The notes under the pieces are model-generated. The model did no database searches. It had not been told where the DNA came from and was given only the letters and a program-made list of their open reading frames with translations. The position numbers were made by a program, and so were the translations under genes. Positions 236 through 13,743 of a stretch of 13,918 nucleotides of DNA are shown here, one piece after another (the stretch's first letter is position 1; every line of letters starts with the position of its first letter). This DNA is from Nitrospinota bacterium (GTDB lineage: Bacteria > Nitrospinota > Nitrospinia > JACRGO01), in NCBI GenBank assembly GCA_016212295.1, contig JACRGO010000146.1:1-13918 (forward strand). Reading direction: 5' to 3'.

Positions 236-270
236 TTCGGCGTTCGATGTTCAGTGTTCGATGTTCGACG
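236..270 (+). repeat. Heptamer tandem array, consensus TTCGATG, five units
   Basis: Five consecutive 7-bp units start with TTC at 236, 243, 250, 257 and 264. The variable positions give TTCGGCG, TTCGATG, TTCAGTG, TTCGATG and TTCGACG. Period and phase are exact. It lies in the non-coding gap between the IS30-like edge and the TatD fusion gene. Other arrays of the same period but different words occur elsewhere in the window. Confidence 0.8.
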
Positions 271-283
271 TTAATTCTTTAAA

Positions 284-309
284 GTCCGCCTGAAGAGCGT
301 TAAGTTCTT
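284..309 (+). repeat. Dispersed repeat, copy 1 (GTCCGCC...GCGTTAAGTTC)
   Basis: About 26 bp beginning GTCCGCC and ending GCGTTAAGTTC recurs at 6339-6364 in the same orientation with a few changes in the middle. Its end overlaps a small palindrome, GTTAAG-TT-CTTAAC at 299-312, about 25 nt upstream of the TatD fusion start. Function unknown; it may be a regulatory box or one more interspersed repeat. Confidence 0.5.
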
Positions 310-337
310 AACTCACTCCCCTTTCCCCCTTAAAAAA

Positions 338-1714
338 ATGTTCATAGACACCCATGCCCACTTGGAGATGGAGCAGTTTGATGCGGATAGGGCTGAAGTC
401 ATCCAGCGGGCGAAAAAAGCGGGTGTGGGAATGATTGTTACCGTCGGCTCGGACCTCGAAGGAAGCTTCAAGGCGGTCGATATCGCAAGGCAGTACGATT
501 TTATCCATGCCGCTGTTGGCATACATCCACATGAATCCGCTGACGTGGATGAGCGCATGCTCGCAAACCTTAAAAAGCTTGCCCGCGACCCGATAGTTAT
601 CGCCATTGGAGAGACCGGCCTGGATTATTTTAAAAAATATGCTTCCAGGGAGGCCCAGATACAGCTTTTTAAAAAACATATCAAGCTTGCGAGGGAAATA
701 AAAAAACCGGTTATTGTTCATTGCAGGGACGCATGGGAGGACGTCTTGTCCATTTTAAAGGCGGAAAAGGCGGAAGAGGTTGGAGGAATCATCCATTGTT
801 TCTCCGGAAATAGGGAAATGGCGTTAAAGTGCGTGGATTTAGGTTTTTTCATCTCTTTCGCCGGACCCTTGACCTACCCCAAATCCAGCCAACTAAGGGA
901 AGCGGCGATGGCCGTCCCCTCTGAAAGGCTTTTTACGGAAACGGATTGTCCGTACTTGGCCCCGCAATCCAATCGCGGAAGGCGTAACGAACCTGCCTTT
1001 GTCGTGGAAACCGCGAAAAAATTGGCGGAAATAAAGGGGGTTTCGCTGGAAGATTTAGGACGCATTATCCTGAAAAACATGGAAACTCTTTTTAAAATGG
1101 GTGAACCGGACGGTTTGGGCAAACCCGTCTACAAGATTCGCAATTCCCTTTATGTCAATGTGACCATGCGATGCACGAATGCTTGTGTGTTTTGCGGGAG
1201 GGAAAGAAACCCCATTGTCGCGGGACACAACTTGAAGTTGGATAATGAGCCTTCCGTGGAGGAGGCCATAAGGGGGATAGGGGACCCTTCCGCGTATGAC
1301 GAAGTGGTTTTTTGCGGATATGGGGAACCCACCTTGCGCCTTGATTTTGTAAAAGAGGTCGCGAAACAGGTCAAGGAAAAAGGGGGCAAAGTGAGAATCA
1401 ACACTAACGGGCAGGGAAATTTAATCCACAACAGGAATATTTTGCCGGAACTTCACGGCCTGGTGGATGTGATATCCGTAAGTCTTAACGCCGAGGATGC
1501 AGAACATTACCGCTTGCTTAGCCGGCCTGAGTTCGGGGAAGGGGCCTACCAGGCCGTGAAGGAGTTCATAAAGGAAGCTGTCAAATATATCCCAAAAGTG
1601 GTTGCGACTGCTGTCAGGGTCCCAGGCAGAGTGGATATACGCCAATGCGAAAAGTTGGCTGAAGAGGAACTAAAGGTCCCTTTTCGGGTCAGGGAATTCA
1701 ACGTTGTGGGATAA
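338..1714 (+). CDS. TatD-family metal-dependent hydrolase fused to a radical SAM domain
   Basis: Two complete domains in one 458-residue chain. Residues 1-255 are a TatD-type TIM barrel. The metal ligands are present: H6 and H8 (DTHAH), E92 (GETGLDY), H128 (VHCRDA), H153 (HCFSG) and D203 (TETDCPYLAP). TatD proteins are metal-dependent 3'-5' exonucleases or deoxyribonucleases. Residues about 260-458 are a compact radical SAM domain with CX3CX2C cysteines C279, C283 and C286 and a GYGEP SAM-binding motif at 327-331. It resembles the 'radical SAM protein, TatD family-associated' group, which is separate from or fused to TatD in different genomes. Its substrate is unknown. The ATG at 338 has no Shine-Dalgarno; the leader is pyrimidine-rich (CTTTCCCCCTTAAAAAA). 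The stop overlaps the rimO start by 11 nt, so the two genes are probably co-translated. Confidence 0.93.
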   Translation: MFIDTHAHLEMEQFDADRAEVIQRAKKAGVGMIVTVGSDLEGSFKAVDIARQYDFIHAAVGIHPHESADVDERMLANLKKLARDPIVIAIGETGLDYFKKYASREAQIQLFKKHIKLAREIKKPVIVHCRDAWEDVLSILKAEKAEEVGGIIHCFSGNREMALKCVDLGFFISFAGPLTYPKSSQLREAAMAVPSERLFTETDCPYLAPQSNRGRRNEPAFVVETAKKLAEIKGVSLEDLGRIILKNMETLFKMGEPDGLGKPVYKIRNSLYVNVTMRCTNACVFCGRERNPIVAGHNLKLDNEPSVEEAIRGIGDPSAYDEVVFCGYGEPTLRLDFVKEVAKQVKEKGGKVRINTNGQGNLIHNRNILPELHGLVDVISVSLNAEDAEHYRLLSRPEFGEGAYQAVKEFIKEAVKYIPKVVATAVRVPGRVDIRQCEKLAEEELKVPFRVREFNVVG

Positions 1715-3104
1715 GGCGCAGGCATTGAGGGAAAAAAAGAAAATCGCAATGGTCTCGCTTGGCTGCCCTAAAAACAGGGTTGATTCCGAGGTCATTCTGG
1801 GAGATGTAAAAAAAAATGGCTTTGAAATAATCGCGGAAGAGTCTAAAGCGGATATTATCATAGTCAATACCTGTGGTTTTATTGACGCTGCCAGGGAAGA
1901 ATCCGTGGATACAATTCTTCGCATGGCTGGACACAAAAAAAGAGGAGCATGTGAAACCCTTGTGGTAACCGGTTGTCTTTCCCAAAAATACAAGGAGGAT
2001 CTTTTGAGGGAAATACCCGAAATTGATCTCCTTTTCGGGACCACTCAATTGGGCCTTATTAGTAAAATTTTATTGAAAAAACAATTAGATAGAGAATTTG
2101 CCGGCAGGGAAGGAAAAATTTGGATAGGCGATCCGGACGCGCCTCCAGAAAATGGGGAAGGCCGATTTTTAACCACTTCCAGCCACAGCGTTTATTTGAA
2201 AATTTCGGAAGGGTGCTCAAGTTGGTGCAAGTTTTGCATAATCCCAAAACTACGTGGTAAATATCGAAGCCGTCACTTGGAATCAGTAATTAGTGAGGCA
2301 AAATCTTTGGCGCAAAGGGGCGCAAAAGAGATCAATTTGGTTTCTCAAGACACAACGTTATACGGCGCGGACCTCGGATTGAAAAAGGGATTAAGCCGCC
2401 TTTTGAGAGGCTTGGGAAAAATTGATGGAATTGAATGGATACGTTTATTGTATTGCCGGCCCTCGCTCGTGGATGATGAATTGGTTGAAACCATTGCCTC
2501 AACGGAAAAAATTTGTAAATATATAGACATTCCCATTCAGCACAGCCATGATGAAATGCTTGCGGCCATGGGAAGAAATGAAAACGAGAAAGAGATAAGA
2601 GACCTTGTGGAAAAATTAAGACAGAAAATCCCGGGCATTGCTATCAGGACAGAACTGATCGTGGGTTTCCCCGGGGAGAAAAAGAGGCATTTCAACCACC
2701 TGGCTGAATTCATTGAGGAAATGGAATTTGACAGGGTCGGGGTTTTTTCATATTCCCGCGAGGACGGCACTGAGGCCGCTGCCATGCCCAATCATGTATG
2801 CAGCTCGTTAAAAAAAGAACGGCTGGGGCAAATCCTGGAATTGCAAAGGCGTATTTCATTTTTTAAAAACAGGAAATTAATAGGGACCTTCCATAAAGTT
2901 TTAGTGGATGGTTTTGGATATTCTTCCGAGGACGACGGCGCGCCGGATGGCTTGCCCCTGGTGGAGGGGAGGCTGGCTTCCCAAGCGCCGGGAGGAATTG
3001 ACGGGGTGGTGTATCTGGACAGGACCCATGCGGCGCCGGGTGAATTAAAGGACGCAATGATTATTGATGCGGGTGATTACGATTTAATTGGGCGGTGTCG
3101 ATGA
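1704..3104 (+). CDS. rimO: Ribosomal protein S12 methylthiotransferase RimO
   Basis: RimO adds a methylthio group to a conserved aspartate of ribosomal protein S12, using two Fe4S4 clusters and SAM. The N-terminal UPF0004 domain carries the three auxiliary-cluster cysteines C21 (SLGCPKN), C57 (VNTCGF) and C91 (TGCLSQ). The radical SAM cysteines are C171, C175 and C178 in EGCSSWCKFCIIPKLRG, the RimO signature that separates it from MiaB. The C-terminus from about 390 is a TRAM RNA-binding domain. The 466-residue length is normal. The start is not ATG: TTG at 1704, behind AGGGA and overlapping the previous gene, gives MWDKAQALREKKKIAMVSLGCP. The only nearby ATG (1749) would cut into the first beta strand, and a TTG at 1725 is the alternative. 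The middle of the gene (about 2040-2560) is AT-richer than its surroundings. Confidence 0.95.
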   Translation: MWDKAQALREKKKIAMVSLGCPKNRVDSEVILGDVKKNGFEIIAEESKADIIIVNTCGFIDAAREESVDTILRMAGHKKRGACETLVVTGCLSQKYKEDLLREIPEIDLLFGTTQLGLISKILLKKQLDREFAGREGKIWIGDPDAPPENGEGRFLTTSSHSVYLKISEGCSSWCKFCIIPKLRGKYRSRHLESVISEAKSLAQRGAKEINLVSQDTTLYGADLGLKKGLSRLLRGLGKIDGIEWIRLLYCRPSLVDDELVETIASTEKICKYIDIPIQHSHDEMLAAMGRNENEKEIRDLVEKLRQKIPGIAIRTELIVGFPGEKKRHFNHLAEFIEEMEFDRVGVFSYSREDGTEAAAMPNHVCSSLKKERLGQILELQRRISFFKNRKLIGTFHKVLVDGFGYSSEDDGAPDGLPLVEGRLASQAPGGIDGVVYLDRTHAAPGELKDAMIIDAGDYDLIGRCR

Positions 3105-3247
3105 AATAAAAATAAAATATTTTTTGGGGTTGCGGACGTATTCGAGTTGTGCTATATTTTGTTATCCCATTCTGACCAAGGTTTTAGTAGTATTAAAGAA
3201 TTGCCGCCAATAGGCCGTTAAGAAAAAATAATTTCATGTTTTTTTTC

Positions 3248-3277
3248 TTGACAAACCATAATTGCTTGTTATATCAT
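3248..3277 (+). promoter_or_regulatory. Sigma-70-like promoter for the secreted paralogue pair
   Basis: A perfect -35 TTGACA at 3248-3253 is followed after 18 bp by TATCAT (3272-3277), five of six matches to the -10 consensus. Transcription from about 3284 would give an untranslated leader of about 150 nt before the ATG at 3437. It is one of the two best sigma-70-like promoters on the plus strand here. Confidence 0.6.
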
Positions 3278-3388
3278 AATCCATCTTTTTCGATTTGGAA
3301 GATAGAAAAGCAAAAAAAATTTTTAATAGAAAGGTGGTGGTTAGAAAAGTCCATATAAATAACTTGTTTTTGTTTTGAGGGGAATTTA

Positions 3389-3404
3389 ACGTTTTTTAAA
3401 ACGT
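3389..3404. promoter_or_regulatory. Short perfect inverted repeat in the leader of the secreted pair
   Basis: ACGTTTT-TT-AAAACGT forms 7-bp perfect arms around two bases, 32 nt upstream of the start codon. It could be an operator half-site pair or a small RNA hairpin. AT-rich context makes chance occurrence plausible. Confidence 0.35.
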
Positions 3405-3436
3405 ACATTAAAATAAATTTGGAGGAAAAAAGGGCA

Positions 3437-3985
3437 ATGAAAAAAATAGTTTATTCCTTTTTAGCGCTTGTATTCGCGTTCACCGGGGTGAATTCGGCCT
3501 CGGCTGACAAGATCATCGTTCCTGTTGTGTACCATTACGGGAACACCAATTATTCCCAGATTAATGTTAAAAACAACTCCGCTGAAGCAGTGCGGGTGTC
3601 GGTGACCTTTAACGGCAACATTACAGACTCGTCAGGGGTAACCACCAATACGAGCGATGCGACTGGAAAAAGCAGAACAATCCTGCTCGCCGGGAACACG
3701 ACCTGGACCTTGCTGACGAAGGACACGGATTTGTGGTCGACCACCACCTCCATGAAGAGGAACCAAGTGGTAGTTCAAACCTCTGCCGATGACACTCCCG
3801 GGACGATTGGGATGTCAGCTACTACCGGCCCGGTAACGGTAGGCGCGCTGTTTGTCGCTGCCGACAGCAGTGGAAATGTGTCAGGGTTCACTTTCCCGGC
3901 ATTTTATGCCACCAGGCAGTGGGCGTCCGTTACTGCTGAACTGGGCGCATTTGGCGGCTCGTATGTTGATATGTGGGAACAATAG
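3437..3985 (+). CDS. Secreted small protein of unrecognised family, paralogue 1
   Basis: A 182-residue protein with a clear Sec signal peptide: MKKIVYSFLALVFAFTGVNS then ASA, likely cut before DKIIVPV. The mature part has no cysteine, is rich in Ser/Thr/Gly/Val and alternates like a beta-sandwich. The start is ATG 3437 behind GGAGGA at 3421-3426; a TTG at 3419 overlaps that ribosome site and is not a start. It shares ordered blocks with the next gene: DKxxVPxxxHYGNTxYSQI, VRVSV, AGxxTW, TDL, SMKRxxVV, GFxFPAxY and a C-terminal YVDxxxQ. I do not recognise the family and assign no function; an exported surface or periplasmic protein fits. It is probably transcribed with its paralogue 79 nt downstream from the promoter at 3248. 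Confidence 0.85.
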   Translation: MKKIVYSFLALVFAFTGVNSASADKIIVPVVYHYGNTNYSQINVKNNSAEAVRVSVTFNGNITDSSGVTTNTSDATGKSRTILLAGNTTWTLLTKDTDLWSTTTSMKRNQVVVQTSADDTPGTIGMSATTGPVTVGALFVAADSSGNVSGFTFPAFYATRQWASVTAELGAFGGSYVDMWEQ

Positions 3986-4007
3986 GTCAACCCTGCTACC
4001 TATTGTT
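3978..4007 (+). terminator. Hairpin over the stop codon between the two secreted paralogues
   Basis: AACAATAGG (3978-3986) pairs perfectly with CCTATTGTT (3999-4007) across a 12-nt loop, and the left arm contains the TAG stop of the first paralogue. Only a short T-rich run follows, so full termination is doubtful. A partial terminator or an mRNA-processing or stability element setting the ratio of the two proteins is as likely. Confidence 0.45.
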
Positions 4008-4064
4008 TTGTGATTCAAACAAAAAAAACGATGATTATTATCTAATCAGGAGGAAAATCAGAAA

Positions 4065-4586
4065 ATGAAAAAATTAGTCCTTTTTATGGTTATGCTAGCG
4101 GCCACCCTGGTATCGGGAATAGCTTCCGCTGATAAGGTCTACGTCCCAATGTCTTTCCATTATGGAAATACTGATTACAGCCAGATTTTGGTCACCAACC
4201 TTGGCACAGCGTCTGTCAGAGTGTCCGTATCGTTTGATGGTTCTTTAACAACATACGCCGGTTCGACAATGAGCACCAACACATTGTCCGTTTCAACCAA
4301 CAAAACCGCTATAGTCGCCGGCGGCAACACCTGGATAGTGCTGACCAGGGAAACCGATTTATTCGGGGCCACCGCAAGCATGAAGAGGGGCTTGGTAGTA
4401 ATTCAATCCTCGGCTAGCGACTCACCGACTGTAGGCCAAGTCAGAGCCCATGGCTTTTTCATCCACGCGGGCACGACTCCTACCGGGTTTATTTTCCCGG
4501 CCAACTATAGGGTTAGAACCTGGACAAGTTCAGCAACAGCAGTAACACCAACCACACAACGTTATGTGGATCACATCAAGCAGTAG
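4065..4586 (+). CDS. Secreted small protein of unrecognised family, paralogue 2
   Basis: A 173-residue protein with signal peptide MKKLVLFMVMLAATLVSGIASA, likely cut before DKVYVPM. The CAGGAGG ribosome site at 4047-4053 is strong but 11 nt away. The mature part has no cysteine and is beta-rich. It aligns along its whole length with the preceding protein: the same DKxxVPxxxHYGNTxYSQ start, SVRVSVSFDG, NTW and TDL, SMKRGLVVIQSSA, GFIFPANYRVRTW and the YVDHIKQ end. The linkers between blocks vary in length and sequence. This is a tandem duplication that has diverged. A perfect terminator follows 27 nt after the stop, so the pair is a closed transcription unit. No function can be assigned from sequence. 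Confidence 0.87.
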   Translation: MKKLVLFMVMLAATLVSGIASADKVYVPMSFHYGNTDYSQILVTNLGTASVRVSVSFDGSLTTYAGSTMSTNTLSVSTNKTAIVAGGNTWIVLTRETDLFGATASMKRGLVVIQSSASDSPTVGQVRAHGFFIHAGTTPTGFIFPANYRVRTWTSSATAVTPTTQRYVDHIKQ

Positions 4587-4612
4587 CCTCTGGTTTGTGT
4601 AACTTGCAACAT

Positions 4613-4648
4613 AAAGCCCTGGCCTTTTTGGCCAGGGCTTTTTTTATT
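4613..4648 (+). terminator. Strong intrinsic terminator of the secreted pair
   Basis: A perfect 12-bp stem AAAGCCCTGGCC / GGCCAGGGCTTT (4613-4624 with 4630-4641), a TTTTT loop and a long T tract that continues past 4646. It sits 27 nt after the second paralogue's stop. Confidence 0.92.
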
Positions 4649-4654
4649 TTTTTT

Positions 4655-4870
4655 GTAACCGTTCACAGGGTTGTCATGAAAAAGCAGAGAAAGCCTCATT
4701 ATCTATTTGTTACATCCCCCTTAATCCCCCTTGCCAAAGGGGAATTAAAACAGATCCCATTTTAGGGCGTTTCCCGTATTCCCCCTTACCAAAGGGGGAC
4801 CAAGGGGGATGTGGTTTCCCCTGCAATTGAGCATGAAGCCGTTTCCATGGCACCTATCGTGAACGGTTAC
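4655..4870. repeat. 216-bp inverted-repeat (MITE-like) element with CCCCCTT blocks
   Basis: The two ends are a perfect 12-bp inverted repeat: GTAACCGTTCAC at 4655-4666 and its complement at 4859-4870. About 57 bp inside each end lies ACATCCCCCTT (4712 onward, and its complement ending at 4812), continuing as a second TCCCCCTT. Between these markers the arms show weaker matching (CATG.AAA, CTTCAT-like), so the arms are about 78-80 bp each and diverged. Two internal hairpins, CCCCTTGCCAAAGGGG and CCCCCTTACCAAAGGGGG, occupy the middle. No transposase is present. The element starts at the T tract of the terminator and ends 28 nt before the lipoprotein start. Confidence 0.65.
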
Positions 4871-4897
4871 CTATTTTCTTTGAGAGAGGCCTCACCC

Positions 4898-6115
4898 ATG
4901 CATGAATTACAATTGAAAATGAAAAATTCCGCTGTGCTTTTTCTGTTTCTTGTCCTTTTTATTTCCGCCTGCGGAGGGAAGGAATCGCAACAGGATGCCT
5001 CGCTGAAACTGGAAGAGGCGTTTATACACTACGAATTGGGCATGGATTATTACGGGATAGGAGAAATGGACAAGGCCGTGGCGGAATGGGAAGAGGCGGT
5101 GAAACTCAATCCCGATTCCGAGGCAAGGCACATGCTGGGACTCGCCTATTATTCCCAAAAAAACACGGATGGGGCCAGGAAGGAATGGGAATACATTCTG
5201 TCAAAGGACGGAAAAAATTTCATGGCCCTGAACAATCTTGGAAACCTTTACAAGGATTTAAAGGATCCCGATAAGGCGCTGGATTTTTTTTCCAGGGCAG
5301 TTGCTGCTAATCCCAAGGAGGCAATGCCTTTCTATAACATGGGCATAGTTTATAAGGAAAAGGGGGACCAAAAGCTTGCAAAGGAAAAATTTTTAAAAGC
5401 CTTGGAGTTGGACCCTCAACTGTCCATTGCCATGTTTGAAATGGGTAATATTCTTTGGGCGGAAGGGGAGAGGGAACAGGCGGCGCCGTATTTTAAAAAA
5501 CTGGCCGGGGGGGAAGGCCGAAAAGATCCTGGCTTTGACCCTATAGTGGCCGGCTATTCGAGCCTCGGGCAGCTATATCTCGAATCAGGAAATTTCGATG
5601 AAAGCGAAAAAAATCTGAAGAAAGGCATTGAAGTTCAACCTTCAAACCCCACGCTGCACTATAGCCTGGGCAATCTTTACGAGATTATGGAAAAAAAAGA
5701 GGAGGCCCTGAAACAATATAAATTGACCTTGCAAATGGACCCTGCCTTCCCGCATGTTTACAATGGGCTAGGGAACCTTTACGCGGAGATGGGAGGGGGC
5801 CATCTTGATGAAGCTGAAGGACTGCTTTTAAAAGGAATGGAAATTGATCCGGGCCTTAAGGACCATTTCCTGGATACTTTAGGATGGGTGTACTACAAGC
5901 AAGGAAAATTGGATGAAGCCATGGCCAAAGTGGAAGAGGCCATCGGATTGACCCCGGCCGACAAAAAAGAAAGTCTTTCCAATAAGCGTTATCACCTCGG
6001 AATAATTTATAAGGCAAAAGGGGACCAGGAAAAGGCGTTGGAAAATTTTAAAAAGGCCATTGAGCTCTATCCTGGCGGAGAAAGCGCTAAAAAAGCGAAA
6101 AAAAATCTTGGATAA
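4898..6115 (+). CDS. TPR-repeat outer- or inner-membrane lipoprotein
   Basis: A 405-residue protein from ATG 4898. It has a lipoprotein signal peptide with a hydrophobic run VLFLFLVLF and lipobox ISAC, so Cys25 would be lipidated. The rest is about ten tetratricopeptide repeats of 34 residues, easily seen as LGxxYxxxGxxxxAxxxxxxAxxxxP (for example residues about 40-73, 108-141 and 142-175, and the last at about 364-397). Such lipoproteins act as scaffolds for protein complexes; PilF/PilW-like pilotins are one class, but nothing here identifies the partner. The reading frame is open back to GTG 4811, inside the inverted-repeat element. I prefer ATG 4898 because GAGAGG lies about 9 nt before it; ATG 4919 (MKNSAVL) is also possible and sits in a 7-bp-periodic stretch. 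It stands alone and converges with mog. Confidence 0.9.
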   Translation: MHELQLKMKNSAVLFLFLVLFISACGGKESQQDASLKLEEAFIHYELGMDYYGIGEMDKAVAEWEEAVKLNPDSEARHMLGLAYYSQKNTDGARKEWEYILSKDGKNFMALNNLGNLYKDLKDPDKALDFFSRAVAANPKEAMPFYNMGIVYKEKGDQKLAKEKFLKALELDPQLSIAMFEMGNILWAEGEREQAAPYFKKLAGGEGRKDPGFDPIVAGYSSLGQLYLESGNFDESEKNLKKGIEVQPSNPTLHYSLGNLYEIMEKKEEALKQYKLTLQMDPAFPHVYNGLGNLYAEMGGGHLDEAEGLLLKGMEIDPGLKDHFLDTLGWVYYKQGKLDEAMAKVEEAIGLTPADKKESLSNKRYHLGIIYKAKGDQEKALENFKKAIELYPGGESAKKAKKNLG

Positions 6116-6133
6116 AATAGTATAGGAATTCCC

Positions 6134-6152
6134 ATTTTAAATCTTTTAAAAT
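6134..6152. terminator. AT-only inverted repeat after the TPR gene
   Basis: ATTTTAAA-TCT-TTTAAAAT, 8-bp arms and a 3-nt loop, 19 nt after the stop of the lipoprotein gene. With no G/C pairs it would be a weak terminator at best. Confidence 0.25.
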
Positions 6153-6168
6153 CAAATAGATATATGAA

Positions 6169-6273
6169 TCACACCCCCCTTGATCCCCCCTTGCCAGGGG
6201 GGAATTTCTGAGATATTCTCCGCCAGGGGGATTTTTAAATATTCCCCCTTAAAAAAGGGGGCCAGGGGGATGT
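6169..6273. repeat. Second CCCCCTT-type inverted-repeat element
   Basis: Starts with ACACCCCCCTTGATCCCCCC and ends with the near complement GGGGGCCAGGGGGATGT. Internal short hairpins CCCCCCTTGCCAGGGGGG and CCCCCTTAAAAAAGGGGG lie in the same layout as the core of the element at 4712-4812. It lacks the outer GTAACCGTTCAC ends of that copy. It lies between the convergent TPR and mog genes. Confidence 0.65.
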
Positions 6274-6366: not shown

Positions 6367-6872
6367 CATACCTTTTCCCTCAAATGGGCGCAGTCTTCCC
6401 TGTCCCCGCTTATCTTCGCGATGGCATGCCCAAGGATGGGGAGAACTACCAGCAGATTTTCCTCCACGGCCTTAGGGTTGCCGGGAAGATTGATTATCAA
6501 AGACCTTTTGCGGATGCCCGCCTTACCCCTGGAAAGAATCGCGTAGGGCGTGAGACGGAGACCGGAAGCTCTCATGGCCTCTCCAAATCCCGGCAATTCT
6601 TTTTCCAGGACTGCGCCTGTGGCTTCCGGCGTAACATCACGGTCGCTTACGCCTGTGCCGCCGGTAGTGACAATCAAGGGCATACACAGAGAATCGCTCC
6701 ATTCCACCAATTTTTTTTTAATCTCTTCCACTTCGTCCGGGACAATGCAATAAAGCTGAATCCTGAATCCGCTGCCCTCAAGGATTCTTCTGGCTGTGGC
6801 CCCGGAAACGTCCTCCCGTTCCCCCTTCGACCCTTTGTCGCTTATTGTCAGAATGGCGGCATCAATACGCAT
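6366..6872 (-). CDS. mog: Molybdopterin adenylyltransferase, Mog/MoaB family
   Basis: A 168-residue cytoplasmic enzyme that would adenylate molybdopterin before metal insertion. Family motifs are all present: ILTISDKG (7-14), TTGGTG (69-74), RDVTPEAT (78-85) and LPGNPKAVEE (129-138). It is the last gene of the moaD-moaE-moeA-mog operon, 11 nt after the moeA stop. There is no Shine-Dalgarno; the junction reads GCTTTAA, CTTTTAA, TTTTATG, with the moeA stop and the mog start each closing a 7-nt unit. Mog and MoaB cannot be cleanly separated by eye; the length and the moeA neighbour fit either name. Confidence 0.93.
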   Translation of the reverse strand: MRIDAAILTISDKGSKGEREDVSGATARRILEGSGFRIQLYCIVPDEVEEIKKKLVEWSDSLCMPLIVTTGGTGVSDRDVTPEATGAVLEKELPGFGEAMRASGLRLTPYAILSRGKAGIRKRSLIINLPGNPKAVEENLLVVLPILGHAIAKISGDREDCAHLREKV

Positions 6873-6883
6873 AAAATTAAAAG

Positions 6884-8131
6884 TTAAAGCAAAAACCCGG
6901 TGACCATTTCACCTTTTTTAAAAAAAGATTTCTCATTGGAAAGAATGATGAAGCCATTGCAATCACAAATCAATTTTAAATTGCCTGAGCCTTGGTCCGG
7001 TAAGGGGGTGGCAATGAATTCACCGTTTTCCTCATGGATGACGGACGCAATAAATATTCTTCGCGCATCCACTTTCCTGTGAAGCTCGGTATCCAATCTG
7101 GCCTGGATGTGCGCATTGCGGTAATGGAGGAAGCCGCCTAACTTTTTTATGGCCGGTTGGACAAACTCATGAAAAGCGATGAATGAAGCGACCGGGTTCC
7201 CAGGGAGTCCGAAAAAGAGTTTTCCGTTAAGGCGTCCAAAAACCAATGGCTTTCCCGGCTTCATGGCCACTTTCCAAAAGGTCAACTCGCTCCCAAGCCT
7301 CTCCAGGACCGCCTTAACCAAATCATAATTTCCAACTGAAACCCCTCCGGTGGTAATTAAAATGTCGGACCTGGAGCCGGCCAGCAGCTTTGCCTCTATA
7401 GCGGCTTCCACGTCCCTGGCGATTCCAAGCAGTTCAGGACGTCCTCCGCACTCTGCAACCATTGCTGAAAGAAGGTGGCTGTTGGAATTTATAATTTGAC
7501 ATTCCGTGGGAGTTTCACCCACGTCCACAATTTCGTCGCCGGTTGCTAGTATTGCCACTGTGGGTCGCGCATAAACTGGGATAGCAGCCAAACACAGGGA
7601 GGAAAGCAGGCCCACCTGTTGAGGTCCTATATGCGTCCCCCGGCGCAAAACGGTTTCTCCTTTTTTTATATATTCCCCTTTGTAGCGTATATTGGCCCCT
7701 TTTCCGGCAGGCGATTTTAAAATAGCGGCTGTTTCACCCCCATAACCATCCGTGTCCTCGACCTGAATTACAGTGTCCGCGCCTGAAGGCATCATGGCGC
7801 CGGTCATGATCCTTGCCGCCTCTCCTTCTTTAAGGGCAAGGTTGAGATTTTTCCCGGCCGGTTGTTCTCCAATGACTCGAAGTGATTTTGGGGATTGAGG
7901 GGAAGCGCCCTGGACATCCTCGAACCGGAGGGCGAAACCATCCATTGCGGATTGATCGAAAGGAGGCAGGCCGAGGCCGGAGACCATATCCTTTTCAAGC
8001 ACGCGGCCGGAGGCGGATGCAACAGGAACAACCTCCGCGCCAAGCGGAGTAATTTGGGAAAGAATTATTTCAAGGGCTTCTTCTATGGAAATCAAGCCGG
8101 CCTCGCTAAATTGACAATTTTCAATTGACAC
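6884..8131 (-). CDS. moeA: Molybdopterin molybdenumtransferase MoeA
   Basis: MoeA inserts molybdenum into adenylated molybdopterin. From the GTG at 8131 it is 415 residues. Motifs: PPFDQSAMDGFA (56-67), RIMTGAMMPSGADTV (107-121), ATGDEIV (196-202), TTGGVSVGNYD (260-270), KPGKPLVFG (291-299) and GLPGNPVAS (308-316). The C-terminal domain IV is present. The start is uncertain. GTG 8131 has no ribosome site and its first ten codons are a heptamer-type repeat (AATTGAC units). TTG 8095 gives LISIEEALEI with a first-codon Met, matches the usual MoeA start and has GAGG 5 nt before it, so I lean to 8095 as the true start while giving the longer frame here. Third gene of the operon, 15 nt after moaE. 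Confidence 0.95.
   Translation of the reverse strand: MSIENCQFSEAGLISIEEALEIILSQITPLGAEVVPVASASGRVLEKDMVSGLGLPPFDQSAMDGFALRFEDVQGASPQSPKSLRVIGEQPAGKNLNLALKEGEAARIMTGAMMPSGADTVIQVEDTDGYGGETAAILKSPAGKGANIRYKGEYIKKGETVLRRGTHIGPQQVGLLSSLCLAAIPVYARPTVAILATGDEIVDVGETPTECQIINSNSHLLSAMVAECGGRPELLGIARDVEAAIEAKLLAGSRSDILITTGGVSVGNYDLVKAVLERLGSELTFWKVAMKPGKPLVFGRLNGKLFFGLPGNPVASFIAFHEFVQPAIKKLGGFLHYRNAHIQARLDTELHRKVDARRIFIASVIHEENGEFIATPLPDQGSGNLKLICDCNGFIILSNEKSFFKKGEMVTGFLL
8109..8129. repeat. Heptamer array AATTGAC / AATTTTC / AATTGAC at the moeA 5' end
   Basis: Three exact 7-nt units between the moaE stop and the conserved start of MoeA. They lie inside the first codons of the longer moeA frame, which argues for the shorter one. 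Confidence 0.55.
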
Positions 8132-8146
8132 TTTTTAATGGTTTTA

Positions 8147-8563
8147 TTAAGGATGGTCTTCCACCCAGACATCGCCGTCGACAGTAAATTCCTTTTTCCA
8201 GATAGGGACGCTCCTCTTGAGCTCATCAATGCAAAATTCACACGCCTTGAATGCTTCTTTCCTATGTTGGGAAACGACAATAATCAAAACGATGTTTTCG
8301 GCGATCTCTATCTTTCCAAATCTATGAATAATCCCTACGTCCAGGACGTCGAATTCCTTAAGGGTCCTGTCCCTTAGGCGCTCCAGGGACTTTTCCGCCA
8401 TTCCTGGATAATATTCAAATTCCAGGCCCTTGATATCTTTCCCTTTGGAAAAATCCCTTGCGGTTCCAAGAAAAACCACCGCCGCCCCGGTATTCCGGAA
8501 AGGCCCGCGCAGGGCCAGGGTTTCTTCCTCTATATTAAAATCAGCAAGTTGTAATTTAATCAT
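8147..8563 (-). CDS. moaE: Molybdopterin synthase catalytic subunit MoaE
   Basis: The large subunit of molybdopterin synthase, which transfers two sulfurs from MoaD thiocarboxylate to precursor Z. 138 residues, normal length. Family motifs: GAAVVFLGTAR (26-36), LEFEYYPGMAEK (47-58), HRFG (80-83), SQHRKEAFKACEFCIDELK (98-116) and PIWKKE (120-125), whose lysines K123/K124 belong to the active site. It follows moaD by 39 nt. The gap is almost entirely a 7-bp tandem array, and the ATG is the last three bases of that array. There is no Shine-Dalgarno. Confidence 0.96.
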   Translation of the reverse strand: MIKLQLADFNIEEETLALRGPFRNTGAAVVFLGTARDFSKGKDIKGLEFEYYPGMAEKSLERLRDRTLKEFDVLDVGIIHRFGKIEIAENIVLIIVVSQHRKEAFKACEFCIDELKRSVPIWKKEFTVDGDVWVEDHP

Positions 8564-8595
8564 TAACCGTAAACCGATAACCGTAAACTGTGAAC
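8561..8595. repeat. Heptamer tandem array CGTAAAC x5 between moaD and moaE
   Basis: On the plus strand the five units CATTAAC, CGTAAAC, CGATAAC, CGTAAAC, TGTGAAC follow each other with exact 7-nt phase, all ending in AAC. The first unit contains the complement of the moaE start codon, so the array runs into the gene. Confidence 0.85.
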
Positions 8596-8602
8596 TTTTT
8601 AT

Positions 8603-8863: not shown

Positions 8864-8890
8864 TATAAGAAAGGGGCTCCGTTATTACAA
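8862..8890 (-). promoter_or_regulatory. Promoter of the moa operon, predicted leaderless
   Basis: On the minus strand TTGTAA (complement of 8885-8890), exactly 17 bp, then a perfect TATAAT (complement of 8862-8867). Seven bases later comes the ATG at 8854, so transcription would start at or next to the start codon. Confidence 0.65.
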
Positions 8891-8946
8891 GCCGATTCCA
8901 CCAATTTTGCTTTGGGGTGTCGGGAGGGGATAAAATAAGTCCATGT

Positions 8947-9046
8947 AATATCGAACAAGGAATAAAGAATGTAAAAAGAGGACCTTCAAAGTAAGGGCAC
9001 GGCGCGCCGTGCCCCTACAAAATTCCGCGGTCCCTTGTTAGATATT
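8947..9046. repeat. 100-bp nested inverted repeat with GGCGCGCC palindrome core
   Basis: Outer arms AATATCGAACAAGG (8947-8960) and the complement of AATATCTAACAAGG (9033-9046) match at 13 of 14. The centre is a near-perfect 28-bp palindrome, 8991-9018, with core GGGCACGGCGCGCCGTGCCC. The left arm also shows a 7-nt rhythm (AACAAGG, AATAAAG, AATGTAA). It fills the gap between the divergent moa operon and the membrane gene and holds no coding sequence. Confidence 0.65.
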
Positions 9047-9075
9047 CTTTATCCGATTTTAAAAAATTTTCCCCC

Positions 9076-9726
9076 GTGAACGGCTACAAAAAAACAATGT
9101 GTTTATTGGTTTTTTTTACGCTGGCAATGGCTTACATGGAAGCCGCCGTGGTCGTTTACCTGCGAGAACTCTTTTATCCGGAAGGGTTCCATTTTCCGCT
9201 GAAGGCGCTTCCAGCAAAGCTTGCCTGGATTGAAATCGGCAGGGAGGCGTCAACCATGGCCATGCTTATTGCCGTAGGGATGGCCGCCGGGAAAAGCCCC
9301 TGGTCAAGATTTTCTATTTTTATTCTGGTCTTCGGGGCATGGGACATTTTTTATTATCTGTGGCTGAAGATTCTGCTCGGCTGGCCCTCCTCGTTCCTTG
9401 AGTGGGACATTCTTTTTTTGATTCCTCTTCCGTGGACCGGGCCTGTAATTGCCCCAATGATTGTGGCAGCATGCATGATTTACGCGGCCCTTGAAGTTCT
9501 TTATATGGAGAAAAAGGGCCTTTCCTTTACTATAAAAAAAGGAGAGACGGTTTTCATCGCGCTAGGCGCGGCAGCCATTTTAGCGTCTTTTTTATGGGAC
9601 GCCGGGATTGTCCTCAACCAGGGAGTCCCCACAAAATTCCAGTGGAAAATTTTTGGGTCCGGGGAGCTTATGGGGCTGCTGGCTTTTGTCCAGGCGGCAA
9701 GGAGAAACAAGGCAAGGCGTTCTTGA
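9076..9726 (+). CDS. Multi-pass membrane protein of unknown function
   Basis: A 216-residue protein with five or six predicted membrane segments (about 8-28, 57-72, 78-100, 120-145, 158-178, 193-207). Well-defined polar or aromatic motifs sit at membrane edges: EAAVVVYLRELFYPEGF (22-38), EIGREAST (53-60), WDIFYYLWLK (89-98), GWP (102-104) and WDILFLIPLPWTGPVIAP (110-127). The density of charged and Trp residues beside helices suggests a conserved enzyme or transporter-like protein, but I cannot name a family. The GTG at 9076 has no ribosome site; ATG 9097 is an alternative. Its stop overlaps the -35 box of the next promoter. It diverges from the moa operon; no functional link is shown. Confidence 0.82.
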   Translation: MNGYKKTMCLLVFFTLAMAYMEAAVVVYLRELFYPEGFHFPLKALPAKLAWIEIGREASTMAMLIAVGMAAGKSPWSRFSIFILVFGAWDIFYYLWLKILLGWPSSFLEWDILFLIPLPWTGPVIAPMIVAACMIYAALEVLYMEKKGLSFTIKKGETVFIALGAAAILASFLWDAGIVLNQGVPTKFQWKIFGSGELMGLLAFVQAARRNKARRS

Positions 9727-9751
9727 CAACCTGTGCCAAAAATGGTATTAA
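9723..9751 (+). promoter_or_regulatory. Sigma-70-like promoter for the EF-G-like gene
   Basis: A perfect TTGACA (9723-9728) overlapping the stop of the preceding gene, 17 bp, then TATTAA (9746-9751) running into AAT. A second TATAAT at 9770-9775 lacks a good -35. Confidence 0.5.
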
Positions 9752-9791
9752 AATAGCCTACTTAGATTATATAATCAAACGTCTTGATGCA

Positions 9792-9829
9792 CGAAAATTT
9801 TATTTTGGCTGCGGCCGTGTCGCGCTATG
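9792..9829 (+). repeat. Dispersed TTTTGGTTGCGG-type repeat, copy at the EF-G start
   Basis: ATTTTGGCTGCGGCCGTG then TCGCGCTATGA, matching the copy at 12681-12718 (other strand) over almost its whole length. The ATG of the EF-G-like gene is part of the repeat's GCGCTATGA end. The repeat has a GCGGC...GCCGC hairpin core in its best copy. Confidence 0.7.
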
Positions 9830-11905
9830 AAAGAATACAAAACCGAAAATATCCGTAATGCGGGACTGATCGGCCATGGAAAGGCGGGCAAGACGTCACT
9901 GGCCGAGGCCATGCTCTTCACCTCCGGGTCGTCTGACCGGCTGGGAAAGGTGGGCGACAATTCCTGCGTAATGGATTTTGACCCGGATGAAATCAAAAGA
10001 GGGGTCTCAATCAACGTGTCACTGGCCTTTTGCGAATGGAAGGGCAAAAAGATAAATATTCTGGACACGCCGGGATTTACCAACTTCATAGCCGAAACAG
10101 AGGCTTGCATGAGGGTCATGGACTCCGCCATCCTTGTGCTGAACGCGGAATCCGGCGTTGAGGTGGTCACGGAAAAGGTCTGGAAATGGGCGGATGAAAG
10201 ACATCTCCCCAGGCTGGTCTATGTCAACCGGCTCGATCATGAGCAGGCCGACCCCATCCGTTGCTTTGACTCCATAGCTCAAAAATTCAAGCAGGACCCG
10301 GTGAGTTTTCAGCTTCCCATAGGCAAGGGGCCGGACTTTAAAGGCGTTGTGGATCTGTTGGCCATGAAGGCCGTTTATTTTTCCAAGGACGCAGGCGGGA
10401 AGTGCGAGATCAAGGAAATCCCGGATGATCTGAAGAAGAAGGCGGAGGAGCACAGGGAAAAGATAATAGAGCGCGCCGCTGAAACGGATGACGCCTTGAC
10501 CGAAAAATACCTGGAAGGGCAAACCCTGACAGAGGACGAAATTTTTAATGGCCTGAAGGCCGGGATTTTAAACGGCGGCATTGTGCCGGTGTTTTTTGGC
10601 TCGGCCATTAAAAATCAGGGCGTTTCCCTTTTGCTGGACGCCGTTCTCCAGTTTTTTCCTTCTCCATTGGAAGTTCCGGAAGCCAAGGGCGTGGACTTAA
10701 AATCGGGGCAGGAAACATCCATCAAAACTTCCGAGGACGGAAGCCTGGCGGCCCTGGTTTTTAAAACCATAGCGGACCCGTTTGCCGGGAAGCTAAGCCT
10801 GTTCCGTGTGTATTCCGGGGTTTTTAAAGGGGACCAGAACATTTTTAATTCTCAAAAAAACTCACAGGAACATGTCGGGCAGGTCTTTTTTCTCCTGGGC
10901 AAGAAACAAATATCCGTTCCCAGGGTCGTGGCCGGCGACTTCGGGTGCGTGGCCAAGCTAAAAGCCACTGAGACCGGAGACGCCTTGTGCCAGGACAATA
11001 AACATGCGGTGGTTTTTGAGAAGATATCCTTTCCGGAACCGGTCATCAGCATGGCGGTCATCCCTAAATCCAGAGAAGACGAAGAAAAGGTCTCCACCTC
11101 CATTCATCGCCTGATGGAGGAAGACCCGTCCCTGCGGGTCGGGCGCGATCCCCAGACCCATGAAATGATAATCTCCGGAATGGGAACTGTCCATTTGGAA
11201 GTGGTTGTGGAAAGACTGAAGAGAAAATTCGGGGTTGATGTGGAAGTGAGGACCCCTAAAATTCCTTATAAGGAAACAATCCGCGCTTCCATTAAAGTCC
11301 AGGGAAAATACAAGAAACAAAGCGGAGGCCGGGGACAATATGGTGACACATGCCTGGAAATAAGCCCGCTGAGGAGAGGCGAGGGTTTCGTGTTCGAGGA
11401 CAAAATAGTCGGAGGCGCCATCCCCAAGCAATACGTCCCGGCGGTGGAAAAGGGAATTGTCGAGGCAATGCAGGAAGGGGTCATCGCCGGTTATCCAATG
11501 GTGGACTTGAAAGTGGTCCTGTATGACGGCTCCTACCACGAGGTGGACTCTTCCGAAATGGCTTTCAAGATAGCGGGTTCAATGGGATTCAAGAAGGGCG
11601 CAATGGATTGCAAGCCGGCGCTGCTGGAGCCTATAAAAGACATGGAGATCACAGTGCCGACCGAGAACGTGGGCGATATAATGGGCGACATCAACTCCAG
11701 GCGCGGAAAGGTCTCCGGGATTGAGCCATCCGGCGATTGTCAAATCATCAAGGCCAAGGTCCCCATGTCTGAAATCCTGAGATACGCGTCGGATCTGAGG
11801 TCCATGACAGGCGGCCGTGGCTCTTTTCATTCTTCTTTCTCTCACTATGAGGAAGTGCCCGGGCACCTGGCGGAAAAAATCACCGCGGAAAGGAAGAAGG
11901 AGTAA
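9827..11905 (+). CDS. fusA: Elongation factor G-like GTPase (EF-G2 type)
   Basis: A 692-residue five-domain translational GTPase. G1 is GHGKAGKT (16-23), switch I EIKRGVSI (55-62), G3 DTPGF (80-84) and G4 NRLD (134-137). Domain IV follows (GGRGQYGD...), then domain V with GDIMGDINSRRGKV. The G1 spacing, the LGKVGDNSCVMDFDPDEI stretch and overall order match the EF-G-like second paralogue (EF-G2) rather than classical FusA. The usual catalytic His after DTPG is Phe84. EF-G2 paralogues often carry Tyr or another residue there, so GTP hydrolysis may be slow. No ribosome site is seen, and the start codon lies in a dispersed repeat. A canonical fusA presumably exists elsewhere. Confidence 0.93.
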   Translation: MKEYKTENIRNAGLIGHGKAGKTSLAEAMLFTSGSSDRLGKVGDNSCVMDFDPDEIKRGVSINVSLAFCEWKGKKINILDTPGFTNFIAETEACMRVMDSAILVLNAESGVEVVTEKVWKWADERHLPRLVYVNRLDHEQADPIRCFDSIAQKFKQDPVSFQLPIGKGPDFKGVVDLLAMKAVYFSKDAGGKCEIKEIPDDLKKKAEEHREKIIERAAETDDALTEKYLEGQTLTEDEIFNGLKAGILNGGIVPVFFGSAIKNQGVSLLLDAVLQFFPSPLEVPEAKGVDLKSGQETSIKTSEDGSLAALVFKTIADPFAGKLSLFRVYSGVFKGDQNIFNSQKNSQEHVGQVFFLLGKKQISVPRVVAGDFGCVAKLKATETGDALCQDNKHAVVFEKISFPEPVISMAVIPKSREDEEKVSTSIHRLMEEDPSLRVGRDPQTHEMIISGMGTVHLEVVVERLKRKFGVDVEVRTPKIPYKETIRASIKVQGKYKKQSGGRGQYGDTCLEISPLRRGEGFVFEDKIVGGAIPKQYVPAVEKGIVEAMQEGVIAGYPMVDLKVVLYDGSYHEVDSSEMAFKIAGSMGFKKGAMDCKPALLEPIKDMEITVPTENVGDIMGDINSRRGKVSGIEPSGDCQIIKAKVPMSEILRYASDLRSMTGGRGSFHSSFSHYEEVPGHLAEKITAERKKE

Positions 11906-11931
11906 TGGACCAGTTAATAGTTTTTAGAAAC

Positions 11932-11956
11932 TCGTGAAGGTTCGTGTCCATTCGTG
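11932..11956 (+). repeat. 10-bp-periodic TCGTG triplet
   Basis: TCGTG occurs at 11932, 11942 and 11952, exactly 10 bp apart, in the 76-bp gap between the EF-G-like gene and ihfA. Ribosome site GGAGGGAGG follows at 11968. Confidence 0.55.
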
Positions 11957-11981
11957 GCTGATTTAACGGAGGGAGGCAAAG

Positions 11982-12305
11982 GTGGTCAAGACAAGCATTG
12001 TTGATTATATCTATGAAAAAATCGGGCACCCGCGAAAATTGGCCGCCATCTCCGTTGAGGAAATAATCAACTCCATCAAGGAAACACTGGCGAACGGGGA
12101 AAACATTCAGATCGTCGGATTCGGACGATTCAATCTTAGAAAGAAGAATGAAAGGACCGGACGGGACCCGGCCACAGGGGAAGAAATTACCATATCCGCC
12201 CGGCAGGTCCTCACCTTCAAACCAAGCCGGCAGTTGAAGGACGCTGTATTGCGGCGCGTTCGCAACAAAAATAAATTTCGATGTAATAATAATATAAAGC
12301 CATGA
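11982..12305 (+). CDS. ihfA: Integration host factor alpha subunit (HU/IHF family)
   Basis: A DNA-bending nucleoid protein, heterodimer partner of IhfB. 107 residues from GTG 11982, behind GGAGGGAGG. Features: N-terminal helices with IVDYIYEKIG, then GFGRFNLRKKNERTGRDPATGEEITISARQVLTFKPS, the flexible DNA-binding arms with the intercalating Pro63. The body ends near residue 90, as in other IhfA proteins. A 17-residue basic tail (RRVRNKNKFRCNNNIKP) extends beyond it. The stop TGA overlaps the merR ATG (ATGA), so the two are translationally coupled. The ihfA-merR pairing is common in Deltaproteobacteria, where pheST often precedes it; here EF-G2 does instead. HU is the alternative, but the motifs and neighbour favour IHF. 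Confidence 0.92.
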   Translation: MVKTSIVDYIYEKIGHPRKLAAISVEEIINSIKETLANGENIQIVGFGRFNLRKKNERTGRDPATGEEITISARQVLTFKPSRQLKDAVLRRVRNKNKFRCNNNIKP

Positions 12306-12712
12306 CGGATATCCCGGACAAGCTCTTCTTTAAAATAGGGGAGGTTTCCACTATAACCCGGTTGGAGCCTCACATACTTCGATACTGGGAAACGGAATTC
12401 CAAGTTTTAAGTCCCAGGAAAAACGAGTCCGGCCAGCGCCTGTACATAAAACGTGATATAGAAACAATCCTGAAAATCAAAAAACTTCTTCATGAAGAAG
12501 GCTATACCATCCTTGGCGCCAAAAAGTTATTGACAAAAAAAAACAAGAAGCCGGAAATAAACGAGGCCGGCGCCGCCGGCCAAAAAATTCTCCAGCAAAG
12601 CCTTGATTTCGAAAGGAAGGAGCCCAACCTGGCGCTAAGGGAAATCAAGGAAGACCTCAAAGCTGTTTTGTCTCTTCTTTCTCATAGCGCGGCATGGCCG
12701 CAACCAAAATAA
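12302..12712 (+). CDS. MerR-family transcriptional regulator
   Basis: 136 residues. The N-terminal winged helix-turn-helix runs from FFKIGEVSTITRLEPHILRYWE through GQRLYIKRDIETILKIKKLLHEEGYTI to GAKKLL (about 8-77). A helical C-terminal segment (about 95-128) should form the dimer coiled coil. No cysteine pair is seen, so metal sensing is not indicated. It overlaps ihfA by 4 nt. The last codons and the stop are supplied by a dispersed repeat (see 12681-12718): the HSAAWPQPK tail is repeat-encoded and probably not ancestral. Confidence 0.9.
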   Translation: MTDIPDKLFFKIGEVSTITRLEPHILRYWETEFQVLSPRKNESGQRLYIKRDIETILKIKKLLHEEGYTILGAKKLLTKKNKKPEINEAGAAGQKILQQSLDFERKEPNLALREIKEDLKAVLSLLSHSAAWPQPK

Positions 12713-12718
12713 ATTTCT
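12681..12718 (-). repeat. Dispersed TTTTGGTTGCGG-type repeat at the merR 3' end
   Basis: On the minus strand it reads GAAATTTATTTTGGTTGCGG then CCATGCCGCGCTATGAG, with a GCGGC-CAT-GCCGC hairpin core. It matches 9792-9829 and, in opposite orientation, 12803-12838. It encodes the last residues of MerR and its stop. Confidence 0.75.
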
Positions 12719-12738
12719 ACGCATTCAAACGTTCGATG

Positions 12739-12891
12739 ATATTATTACGCTCAGAAATTTACGTTTTCCGCTTGAAATAAAATCAGCTTTGAATGCTTCA
12801 AGAGAAATTCATTTTGGTTGCGGACATGCGCGCTCCAGGAAGCGTTTGAAAACTTTGCGCGGAAAACGCAAATTTCTGAACGTAATAATAT
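12739..12891. repeat. 153-bp long inverted repeat (MITE-like or structured leader)
   Basis: The left arm 12739-12771 and the complement of the right arm 12859-12891 match at 31 of 33 positions; the arms begin ATATTATTACG and contain TCAGAAATTT and CGTTTTCCGC. The 87-bp interior contains another copy of the TTTTGGTTGCGG repeat (12803-12838). It has no transposase and no open frame. It ends directly before the AAGGAGG ribosome site of the next gene, so if transcribed it would be a large hairpin in its leader. Confidence 0.75.
12803..12838 (+). repeat. Dispersed TTTTGGTTGCGG-type repeat inside the long inverted repeat
   Basis: GAAATTCATTTTGGTTGCGG then ACATGCGCGCTCC, the complement-orientation partner of 12681-12718 with one deleted base and a few changes. 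Confidence 0.7.
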
Positions 12892-12906
12892 TGATAAGGA
12901 GGAAAT

Positions 12907-13434
12907 ATGGAAAATTTGGTATCCGTGAGGTATGGATTATTATTCGCCTTGATTACACTGATTTATGGATTTGGACTTGGGGGCGCGTTCGGCGCATTCG
13001 AGGAAAACATCATGGGACATTTGGAAGACAGCGCAAAGCAAGTATTGTCCGCGACTTACAATGGGGATGAAGCGAAAATGAAAAAAACAATCGAGAAGTC
13101 CTGGACTTATTTCAAGCGGGCGCATCTCCACGCGAATGGACTTGGAGCATCGGCTTTGGCGCTTATCCTGCTTGTGTCATTTCTTCCGGTTGGCAAGATA
13201 ATCAAAAGCATAAATGCGATATGTCTTGGCGCCGGGTCATTCGGGTATTCCATGTTCTGGATGCTGGCCGGCCTTAAAGCGCCGGGCATGGGGAGCACGG
13301 GCTTGGCGAAGGAATCCATGAAATGGCTGGCAGTGCCATCGGCCGGGCTTTGCATTATCGGGGTACTAATGGTTTTTGGATCAGCAATTATCACATTATT
13401 TTTCAAGGGAAATTCGTCCACCATGAAGGGGTGA
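12907..13434 (+). CDS. Small multi-pass membrane protein of unknown function
   Basis: 175 residues with four probable membrane segments (about 8-28, 77-95, 101-123, 140-166). A long soluble loop (30-76) ends in the conserved-looking KRAHLHANGLG (70-80), where His73 and His75 might bind metal or heme. Further motifs are GAGSFGYSMFWMLAGLKAPG (108-127). It has a near-ideal start: AAGGAGG at 12896-12902 and ATG 4 nt later. purS begins 10 nt after its stop, so the two are an operon. I do not recognise the family and give no function. Confidence 0.85.
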   Translation: MENLVSVRYGLLFALITLIYGFGLGGAFGAFEENIMGHLEDSAKQVLSATYNGDEAKMKKTIEKSWTYFKRAHLHANGLGASALALILLVSFLPVGKIIKSINAICLGAGSFGYSMFWMLAGLKAPGMGSTGLAKESMKWLAVPSAGLCIIGVLMVFGSAIITLFFKGNSSTMKG

Positions 13435-13444
13435 CACATAAATT

Positions 13445-13693
13445 ATGTTCACAGCGAAAGTTTTTGTTTCTCCAAAAAAAAATGTCCTGGATCCCCAAGG
13501 GAAGGCGGTCCACCACGCCCTCGAGTCCTTGGGCTTCGAGGAAATCAATGACGTGAGGGTCGGCAAATATATAGAGGTGAAGGTCAACCGGAAAGACAAG
13601 GCCGCGGCGGAGGCGGAGGTAAAAAGAATGTGCGACAGCCTCCTCGTGAATCCGGTTGTAGAAGAATATACCTTTGATATAAGCGCTGAGTAA
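13445..13693 (+). CDS. purS: Phosphoribosylformylglycinamidine synthase subunit PurS
   Basis: The small subunit of the three-part FGAM synthase (PurL-PurQ-PurS) in purine synthesis. 82 residues, normal length: FTAKVFVSPKKNVLDPQGKAVHHALESLGF, then VRVGKYIEV and LVNPVVEEYTFDI. The ribosome site AAGGGG lies 13 nt upstream and overlaps the end of the membrane gene. purQ, the usual next gene, does not follow: at least 225 bp of non-coding DNA come after it. Confidence 0.93.
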   Translation: MFTAKVFVSPKKNVLDPQGKAVHHALESLGFEEINDVRVGKYIEVKVNRKDKAAAEAEVKRMCDSLLVNPVVEEYTFDISAE

Positions 13694-13708
13694 ACAGTAG
13701 AGGATGTG

Positions 13709-13743
13709 GAGTTCAGGGGTCAGAAGCCAGAAGTCAGGATAAA
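13709..13743 (+). repeat. Heptamer tandem array around GAAGTCA, five units
   Basis: Units at 13709, 13716, 13723, 13730 and 13737: GAGTTCA, GGGGTCA, GAAGCCA, GAAGTCA, GGATAAA. The first four end in CA. A complementary 7-nt rhythm returns at 13763-13783 (TTCTGAC, TTTTATC, TTTTAGA). Confidence 0.7.

Follow-up and report, generated by a model that had tools for sequence, protein, structure and literature searches.

Period-7 intergenic arrays of a Nitrospinota bacterium as probable arms of small mobile elements carrying an S23 gene

Genes and period-7 arrays of the window

The stretch of DNA that was analysed (13,918 nucleotides, here called the window) is an entire contig (G000:C103) of a Nitrospinota genome of 3.74 Mb in 237 contigs, and its EF-G shares 75% identity with the EF-G of the Nitrospinia MAG OFTM173, the closest named relative. 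The genes, called with a simple ORF rule, include TatD-radical SAM, moaB/moeA-type, EF-G-like, TPR and PurS genes, together with RimO-, moaE-, moaD-, IHF- and MerR-like genes that were identified by eye. A fusion of a TatD DNase and a radical SAM domain occupies a single ORF at 338-1714, and the adjacent pair at 3437-3985 and 4065-4586 encodes similar, apparently secreted proteins with no match in Pfam. A TIR-type repeat (GGTAACCGTTCAC...GTGAACGGTTACC), distinct from the heptamer arrays, lies at 4656-4871; its copy at L022:6365-6560 sits within a heptamer-armed hairpin and has a clean 8-bp duplication, CAATTCCA. G/C-rich repeats of the CCCCCTTAATCCCCCTTGCC type, direct and inverted, are present at 4714-4812 and 6171-6271. 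The window contains no S23 gene. S23 (PF05635/TIGR02436) is the family to which the ORF of 23S rRNA intervening sequences (IVS) belongs, and a relative of Avd, a protein of diversity-generating retroelements (DGRs).

Arrays were scored against local dinucleotide shuffles. The forward-strand array GTTCGAT/GTTCAGT/GTTCGAC at 229-272 (score 15.0, P < 0.001) extends with an attached 3' piece (TTAATTCTTTAAAGTCCGCC) to 229-310 and is a single arm of a dispersed family, located upstream of the TatD-radical SAM gene, with 53 matches in the genome sample. The word of 229-272 (GTTCGAT/GTTCGAC; TTCGATG) also brackets the S23 gene L157, and GTTCGATGTTCGA has 22 exact sites genome-wide, versus 0 for reversed controls. 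On the reverse strand, the array CGTAAAC/CGATAAC at 8556-8596 (score 14.2, P < 0.001) belongs to a feature at 8556-8602, whose part 8564-8602 is the entire spacer from the moaD stop to the moaE start. The array is 87.5% identical over 32 bp to the 5' arm of the S23 element L144, and CGTAAAC is found around L143 and L144. The forward-strand array at the moaE-moeA junction, AATTGAC/AATTTTC at 8109-8139 (P = 0.008 for 8109-8133), is better described as period 14, the period given by TRF; it matches the arm beside an S23 gene (L046/L154) at 85% over 39 bp, and CAATTTTCAATT lies beside L154. Directly 3' of the purS stop, GGGGTCAGAAGCCAGAAGTCAGG (GAAGTCA; 13713-13746, forward strand, score 9.4, P = 0.002) has a short inverted match, TATTCTGACTT, near 13762-13772. 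The region 13700-13755 shares 87.5% identity with L059:2921-2976, an array that is itself accompanied by an inverted partner, and GTCAGGGGGCAGG is a looser word match between 13713-13746 and the surroundings of the S23 genes L145 and L156. A weak stretch, GAACAAGGAATAAAGAAT (AACAAGG/AATAAAG; P = 0.018), is the left arm of a short hairpin at 8953-8973 on the forward strand, and its any-lag P for 8953-8970, which allows lags 5-10, is 0.14. The inverted partner, CTTGTTAGATATTCTTTAT, forms the right arm at 9036-9053 on the reverse strand (partner score 11.5, by alignment). Between these arms a palindrome, GGGCACGGCGCGCCGTGCCC, lies at 8995-9014, with similar ones at L025 and L009.

The sequence-only reading had named arrays at seven places in the window. 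Those at 236 and 8561 are secure and those at 13709 and 8109 good, the one at 8947 is weak, and the two at 4904-4931 and 6870-6890, with any-lag P values of 0.41 and 0.07, were rejected as chance. Words of resident S23 elements are matched by three of the five arrays, and the other two are linked to S23 weakly. Through words in common, matches over short lengths (E 1e-6 to 2.5e-4) and membership in dispersed families, the window arrays are assigned to S23 elements as their putative non-coding derivatives, either hairpins or single arms.

The constant period with differing words, which had been claimed from the window, was borne out in the host genome. In the intergenic DNA of 44 stretches (537 kb) picked regardless of repeats, the lag-7 match rate is 0.306 versus 0.265 in shuffles (z = 27), with harmonics at lags 14 and 21 (z = 13), and coding DNA of the same stretches gave no lag-7 signal. 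Against 138 intergenic arrays at lag 7, lags 6, 8 and 9 have 3, 29 and 26, so that period 7 exceeds the neighbouring periods almost five-fold or more. The earlier claim of an exact 7-nt phase is too strict because a minority of arrays have period 8 (L150, L159, L178, L201 and L227), and a fixed period of 7 was rejected, although 7 is dominant; period-6 elements are rare. One genome holds dozens of words, and words drift along single arrays (e.g., L048:11275-11387). A degenerate core, NNRTTYG, is common to them and fits better than column-permuted controls, and the words are many but not arbitrary.

Inverted arms and the anatomy of S23 elements

Of 144 arrays, 58% are accompanied within 300 bp by their own word in inverted orientation; the corresponding figure is 8% when the flanks are taken from other arrays and 9% when direct copies are counted. 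The arrays are therefore arms of hairpins; about 40% lack a detectable inverted partner. Two hairpins in the stretch L046 enclose small genes of the "four-helix-bundle" type. A family search found 18 PF05635 (23S_rRNA_IVP) genes in the genome, and nearly all of them lie between inverted period-7 or period-8 arrays, each with its own word. Their proteins match TIGR02436 and PDB 2GSC, an S23 crystal structure from X. campestris, and also weakly NF033474 (Avd, E 2e-6). A full element consists of a heptamer (sometimes octamer) array, one S23/IVP ORF and the same array inverted; it measures about 420-600 bp and usually fits tightly between two genes. The arms (median 4.6 units, typically 4-5) are terminal inverted repeats that close a stem around the ORF, and the 5' arm in gene sense is purine-rich in 69 of 88 cases (P = 8e-8), which is a strand polarity. 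Full elements encode PF05635 and the window arrays do not. Non-coding derivatives, as hairpins of about 100-200 bp or as one arm, far outnumber the full elements.

Some loci depart from this anatomy. At L046:1525-1994 (L149), the S23 gene has long inverted arms (CAAGTGACTAAAGTTTCAAGTGAAC...) that are repetitive without a clear period 7, possibly an older or different arm type. At L162, L204 and L219, long arrays of the same word stand on both sides of the S23 gene in direct orientation, rather than or besides inverted. Integron attC sites were considered for the hairpins that recur between genes in L046 and L022 and were rejected: the hairpins separate ordinary chromosomal genes, and an attC core was not seen there.

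The flanking rule was compared with control genes of similar size, and most of the genomes used were drafts that were read as samples, the host genome as 60 stretches. In the genome itself, period-7 and inverted flanks were found at 65% and 88% of S23 genes versus 22% and 8% of control genes, the background of this genome being itself high. The corresponding values are 52% and 76% versus 1% and 0% in Nitrospinota relatives, and 75% and 79% versus 1% and 1% in Desulfobacterota-type genomes. Among 30 further Desulfobacterota-type loci, period 7 was found in 22, periods 6-8 in 28 and inverted flanks in 28. Viral-contig loci have period-7 flanks in 19 and inverted flanks in 21 of 23 cases, and plasmid loci, mostly cyanobacterial but including Azospirillum and Gemmatirosa, have period 7 or 8 in 14 of 14. 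Summed by hand over 137 loci (Nitrospinota, Desulfobacterota, Cyanobacteriota and others), about 97 (71%) have period 7 and 115 (84%) are inverted, while about 1% of control genes outside the genome have such flanks. Array density follows S23 gene count: genomes that lack S23 genes have no arrays or almost none, and those with ten have as many as 40 per 100 kb (Spearman coefficient 0.87 in 16 genomes, uncorrected for kinship). The same trend is present in 45 genomes. The same-genus genome G001 is an exception, having 15 S23 genes and yet few arrays in its sample.

Inheritance of the word and mobility of the elements

Arms within one element match each other in 72-93% of cases, versus 1.5-7% for arms of other elements, and gene-less arrays match resident S23 arms in 40% but foreign arms in 6-10%. 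The arm word tracks protein similarity among 99 elements (Mantel r = 0.22; 0 of 2000 permutations as high). Among 119 elements with GC-matched controls, arms are similar in 60% of related-protein pairs versus 1.9%; long arrays inflate these arm scores, so that the effective information is about seven bases, and the empirical baselines (about 2%) allow for this inflation. By band of protein similarity, from 0.85, 0.75, 0.65 and 0.60 upward, 100, 89, 62 and 31% of pairs have similar arms, against about 2% at low similarity, and in 12 of 17 protein clusters arms are common to at least half of the pairs. Words are also shared across phyla, the Desulfobacterota-type L196 having the GTCAGAA-type word of the cyanobacterial L228 and L229, and the Nitrospinota element L179 shares its word with L199. 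The coupling persists at saturated fourfold-degenerate sites (0.29 vs. 0.28 in unrelated pairs). Judged by these comparisons, the word behaves as a heritable property of the S23 protein lineage beyond neutral expectation; part of the word similarity could be co-inheritance, the saturation argument being indirect and the pairs non-independent.

Several comparisons point to movement. Over 431 bp the S23 elements L143 and L144 share 81% identity, and their homology stops at the arms. One non-coding hairpin family (L022-type) combines inverted ends with 22 near-identical copies in 808 kb, which differ by exact 7-nt units. Filled and empty sites were compared in related plasmids of cyanobacteria whose sequences around the site are roughly 85-95% identical. 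In Nostoc ATCC 53789 (L228), a 418-bp element interrupts a stop codon and is bordered by TTCTA at either end, and two other plasmids have the empty site. In Nostoc C052 and Picosynechococcus PCC 7003, an element takes up the whole interval between a stop codon and the following gene, which in relatives is a short spacer. In a Peltigera cyanobiont plasmid, a non-coding hairpin of 182 bp, whose arms carry the same word, interrupts the S23 gene itself. The sites compared showed no consistent duplication of the target: TTCTA stands on both sides at L228, none is evident at the L359 insert, and the spacer is replaced at L230 and L225. In the nrd comparison, L217 and L358 are too diverged for exact element ends. 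On the evidence of the aligned plasmids, insertions of S23-type elements do occur. Between the arms of the S23 elements read, no transposase was found. S23 genes also lie inside cas operons at L219, L224 (cas6/cas4) and L225 (cas10/cmr3), with period-7 or period-8 flanks in all three, and one of the three has an empty-site relative.

The sequence-only reading had favoured a process generating heptamer arrays rather than the spread of one element. The inverted arms, the high-copy families, the filled and empty sites and the inheritance of the word with the S23 protein reverse this judgement and indicate one class of spreading element with lineage-specific words. A single dispersed repeat behind all arrays was rejected, since words differ and arms of different elements do not match; fragments of a longer dispersed repeat account in part for single words, as for 229-310, but not across words.

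Explanations of the arrays and their relation to known repeats

The arrays are likely to be arms of small mobile elements of one class, which carry an S23 gene, and of their non-coding relatives; some would be single arms left behind. The data themselves show the bracketing of S23 genes in several phyla, the inversion of the arms, words specific to each element, 7-nt unit indels, filled and empty sites and strand polarity; the arms are probably read by an S23 pentamer, and we infer both this protein binding and the chemistry of transposition. The pentamer would recognise the word of its own element, most probably in single-stranded form, with about one unit per subunit and 7-8 nt as the inter-subunit spacing. 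TRAP is a ring protein that binds regularly spaced (G/U)AG repeats, and a ring protein of this kind would explain the fixed spacing and the arms of 4-5 units. Through recognition of the word, S23 would act on elements in cis and in trans, while slippage and template errors would alter the unit number and probably make the word drift slowly. To our knowledge, S23 has no transposase-like catalytic residues, and because it is related to Avd, a homologous four-helix-bundle protein, movement by way of RNA or reverse transcription is worth considering. Unlike DGRs, the S23 loci read have no reverse transcriptase or variable repeat.

Could the arrays be RNA-level elements like the IVS of 23S rRNA, with the arms as an RNase III stem, the protein incidental and the words free because only complementarity counts? 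The arms do form a closing stem, insertion is in intergenic spacers with strand polarity, and in Coxiella the IVS is cleaved by RNase III at the first heptamer (PMC4990558). That IVS carries tandem GACAGAT heptamers in the 5' arm beside the S23p ORF, with 2-3 units by strain (PMC4990558). Pairing alone, however, would not make words follow the protein at saturated divergence, nor does it account for the 7-nt repeat, and this explanation is regarded as unlikely. The elements resemble the IVS of Leptospira and Coxiella in having an S23/PF05635 ORF in a stem of terminal inverted repeats but differ from them in lying between protein genes, wherever neighbours were read, rather than in a 23S rRNA gene, in their many copies per genome with differing words, and in their abundant non-coding derivatives. 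Ordinary DNA transposon or MITE ends served by an unrelated transposase, with S23 as a passenger, would fit the high-copy MITE-like families, and a clean 8-bp duplication is known for another, TIR-type repeat (L022:6365-6560). Yet S23 is the gene enclosed time after time in several phyla, the arms of the elements read have no transposase between them and the words follow S23, which makes such a passenger role decidedly improbable. The elements share with MITE/REP sequences the form of short dispersed intergenic hairpins but differ in that their arms are tandem heptamers and the partner gene appears to be S23.

Pure replication slippage, one of the two kinds of process named by the sequence-only reading, supposes that polymerase geometry favours heptamers anywhere and that words arise by chance at each locus (Mrazek, as cited in passages of PMC4692102). 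The exact 7-nt unit indels among the 22 copies of one family and the word drift within L048:11275-11387 agree with it, as does the over-representation of heptamers among simple repeats of many bacteria in the same passages (PMC4692102). Same-word inverted partners, the bracketing of S23 genes, the near absence of arrays from genomes without S23 genes and a word common to cyanobacterial and Desulfobacterota elements with related proteins are not expected from it. As a full account slippage is very improbable; the inverted partners and the bracketing speak against it as sole cause, and it stays as the source of unit-number change. Duplication could also have spread regulatory binding sites that control transcription or translation, an origin proposed for TAACTGA in Beggiatoaceae, and this would suit arrays that adjoin start or stop codons (8564-8602; passages of PMC4679880). 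Such sites would not be expected to bracket S23 genes, and empty sites in related plasmids and an insertion inside an ORF (L359) also stand against this idea, which is hardly probable at all.

Heptameric repeats were described earlier as STRR and related families, namely GGGGATT in Nostoc and GGGAATC in Xanthomonas (PMC4692102), TAACTGA in Beggiatoaceae (PMC4679880) and GGACCGG in Geobacter (PMC2700814), and S23 is not mentioned in the searched passages of these papers. In Xanthomonas, 70 inverted pairs near stop codons were reported, again in passages of the paper (PMC4692102). Like the arrays studied here, these are intergenic tandem heptamers, typically of about 4 units; in the passages concerned they are treated as families of a single word or as G-quadruplexes and are not connected with S23, whereas dozens of words were found here in one genome rather than one fixed word per family. 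The cyanobacterial STRR, cited by the sequence-only reading as a precedent in which each uses a fixed word, are a true heptamer precedent, and they turn out to obey the same flanking rule (14/14 plasmid loci, mostly cyanobacterial). In a search of published open-access papers, the S23-heptamer link was found only in the Coxiella IVS paper (PMC4990558).

We tentatively propose, as a reading that could well prove too broad, that these are widespread mobile elements without a transposase, in which an Avd-like pentamer would read a 7-8 nt word in both arms. Each protein lineage having its own word, the protein and its arms would together constitute a recognition code found in nature, and the elements may have left most of the heptameric repeats of bacteria (STRR etc.) as traces. 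The proposal links two old puzzles, the many heptameric repeats found in cyanobacteria, Xanthomonas, Geobacter and Beggiatoaceae, and a very widespread S23 gene without an assigned function. Its direct prediction is that every S23 protein would bind its own seven-letter word, and the S23 genes that two studies (PMC3936711, PMC10910872) associated with CRISPR may be inserted elements.
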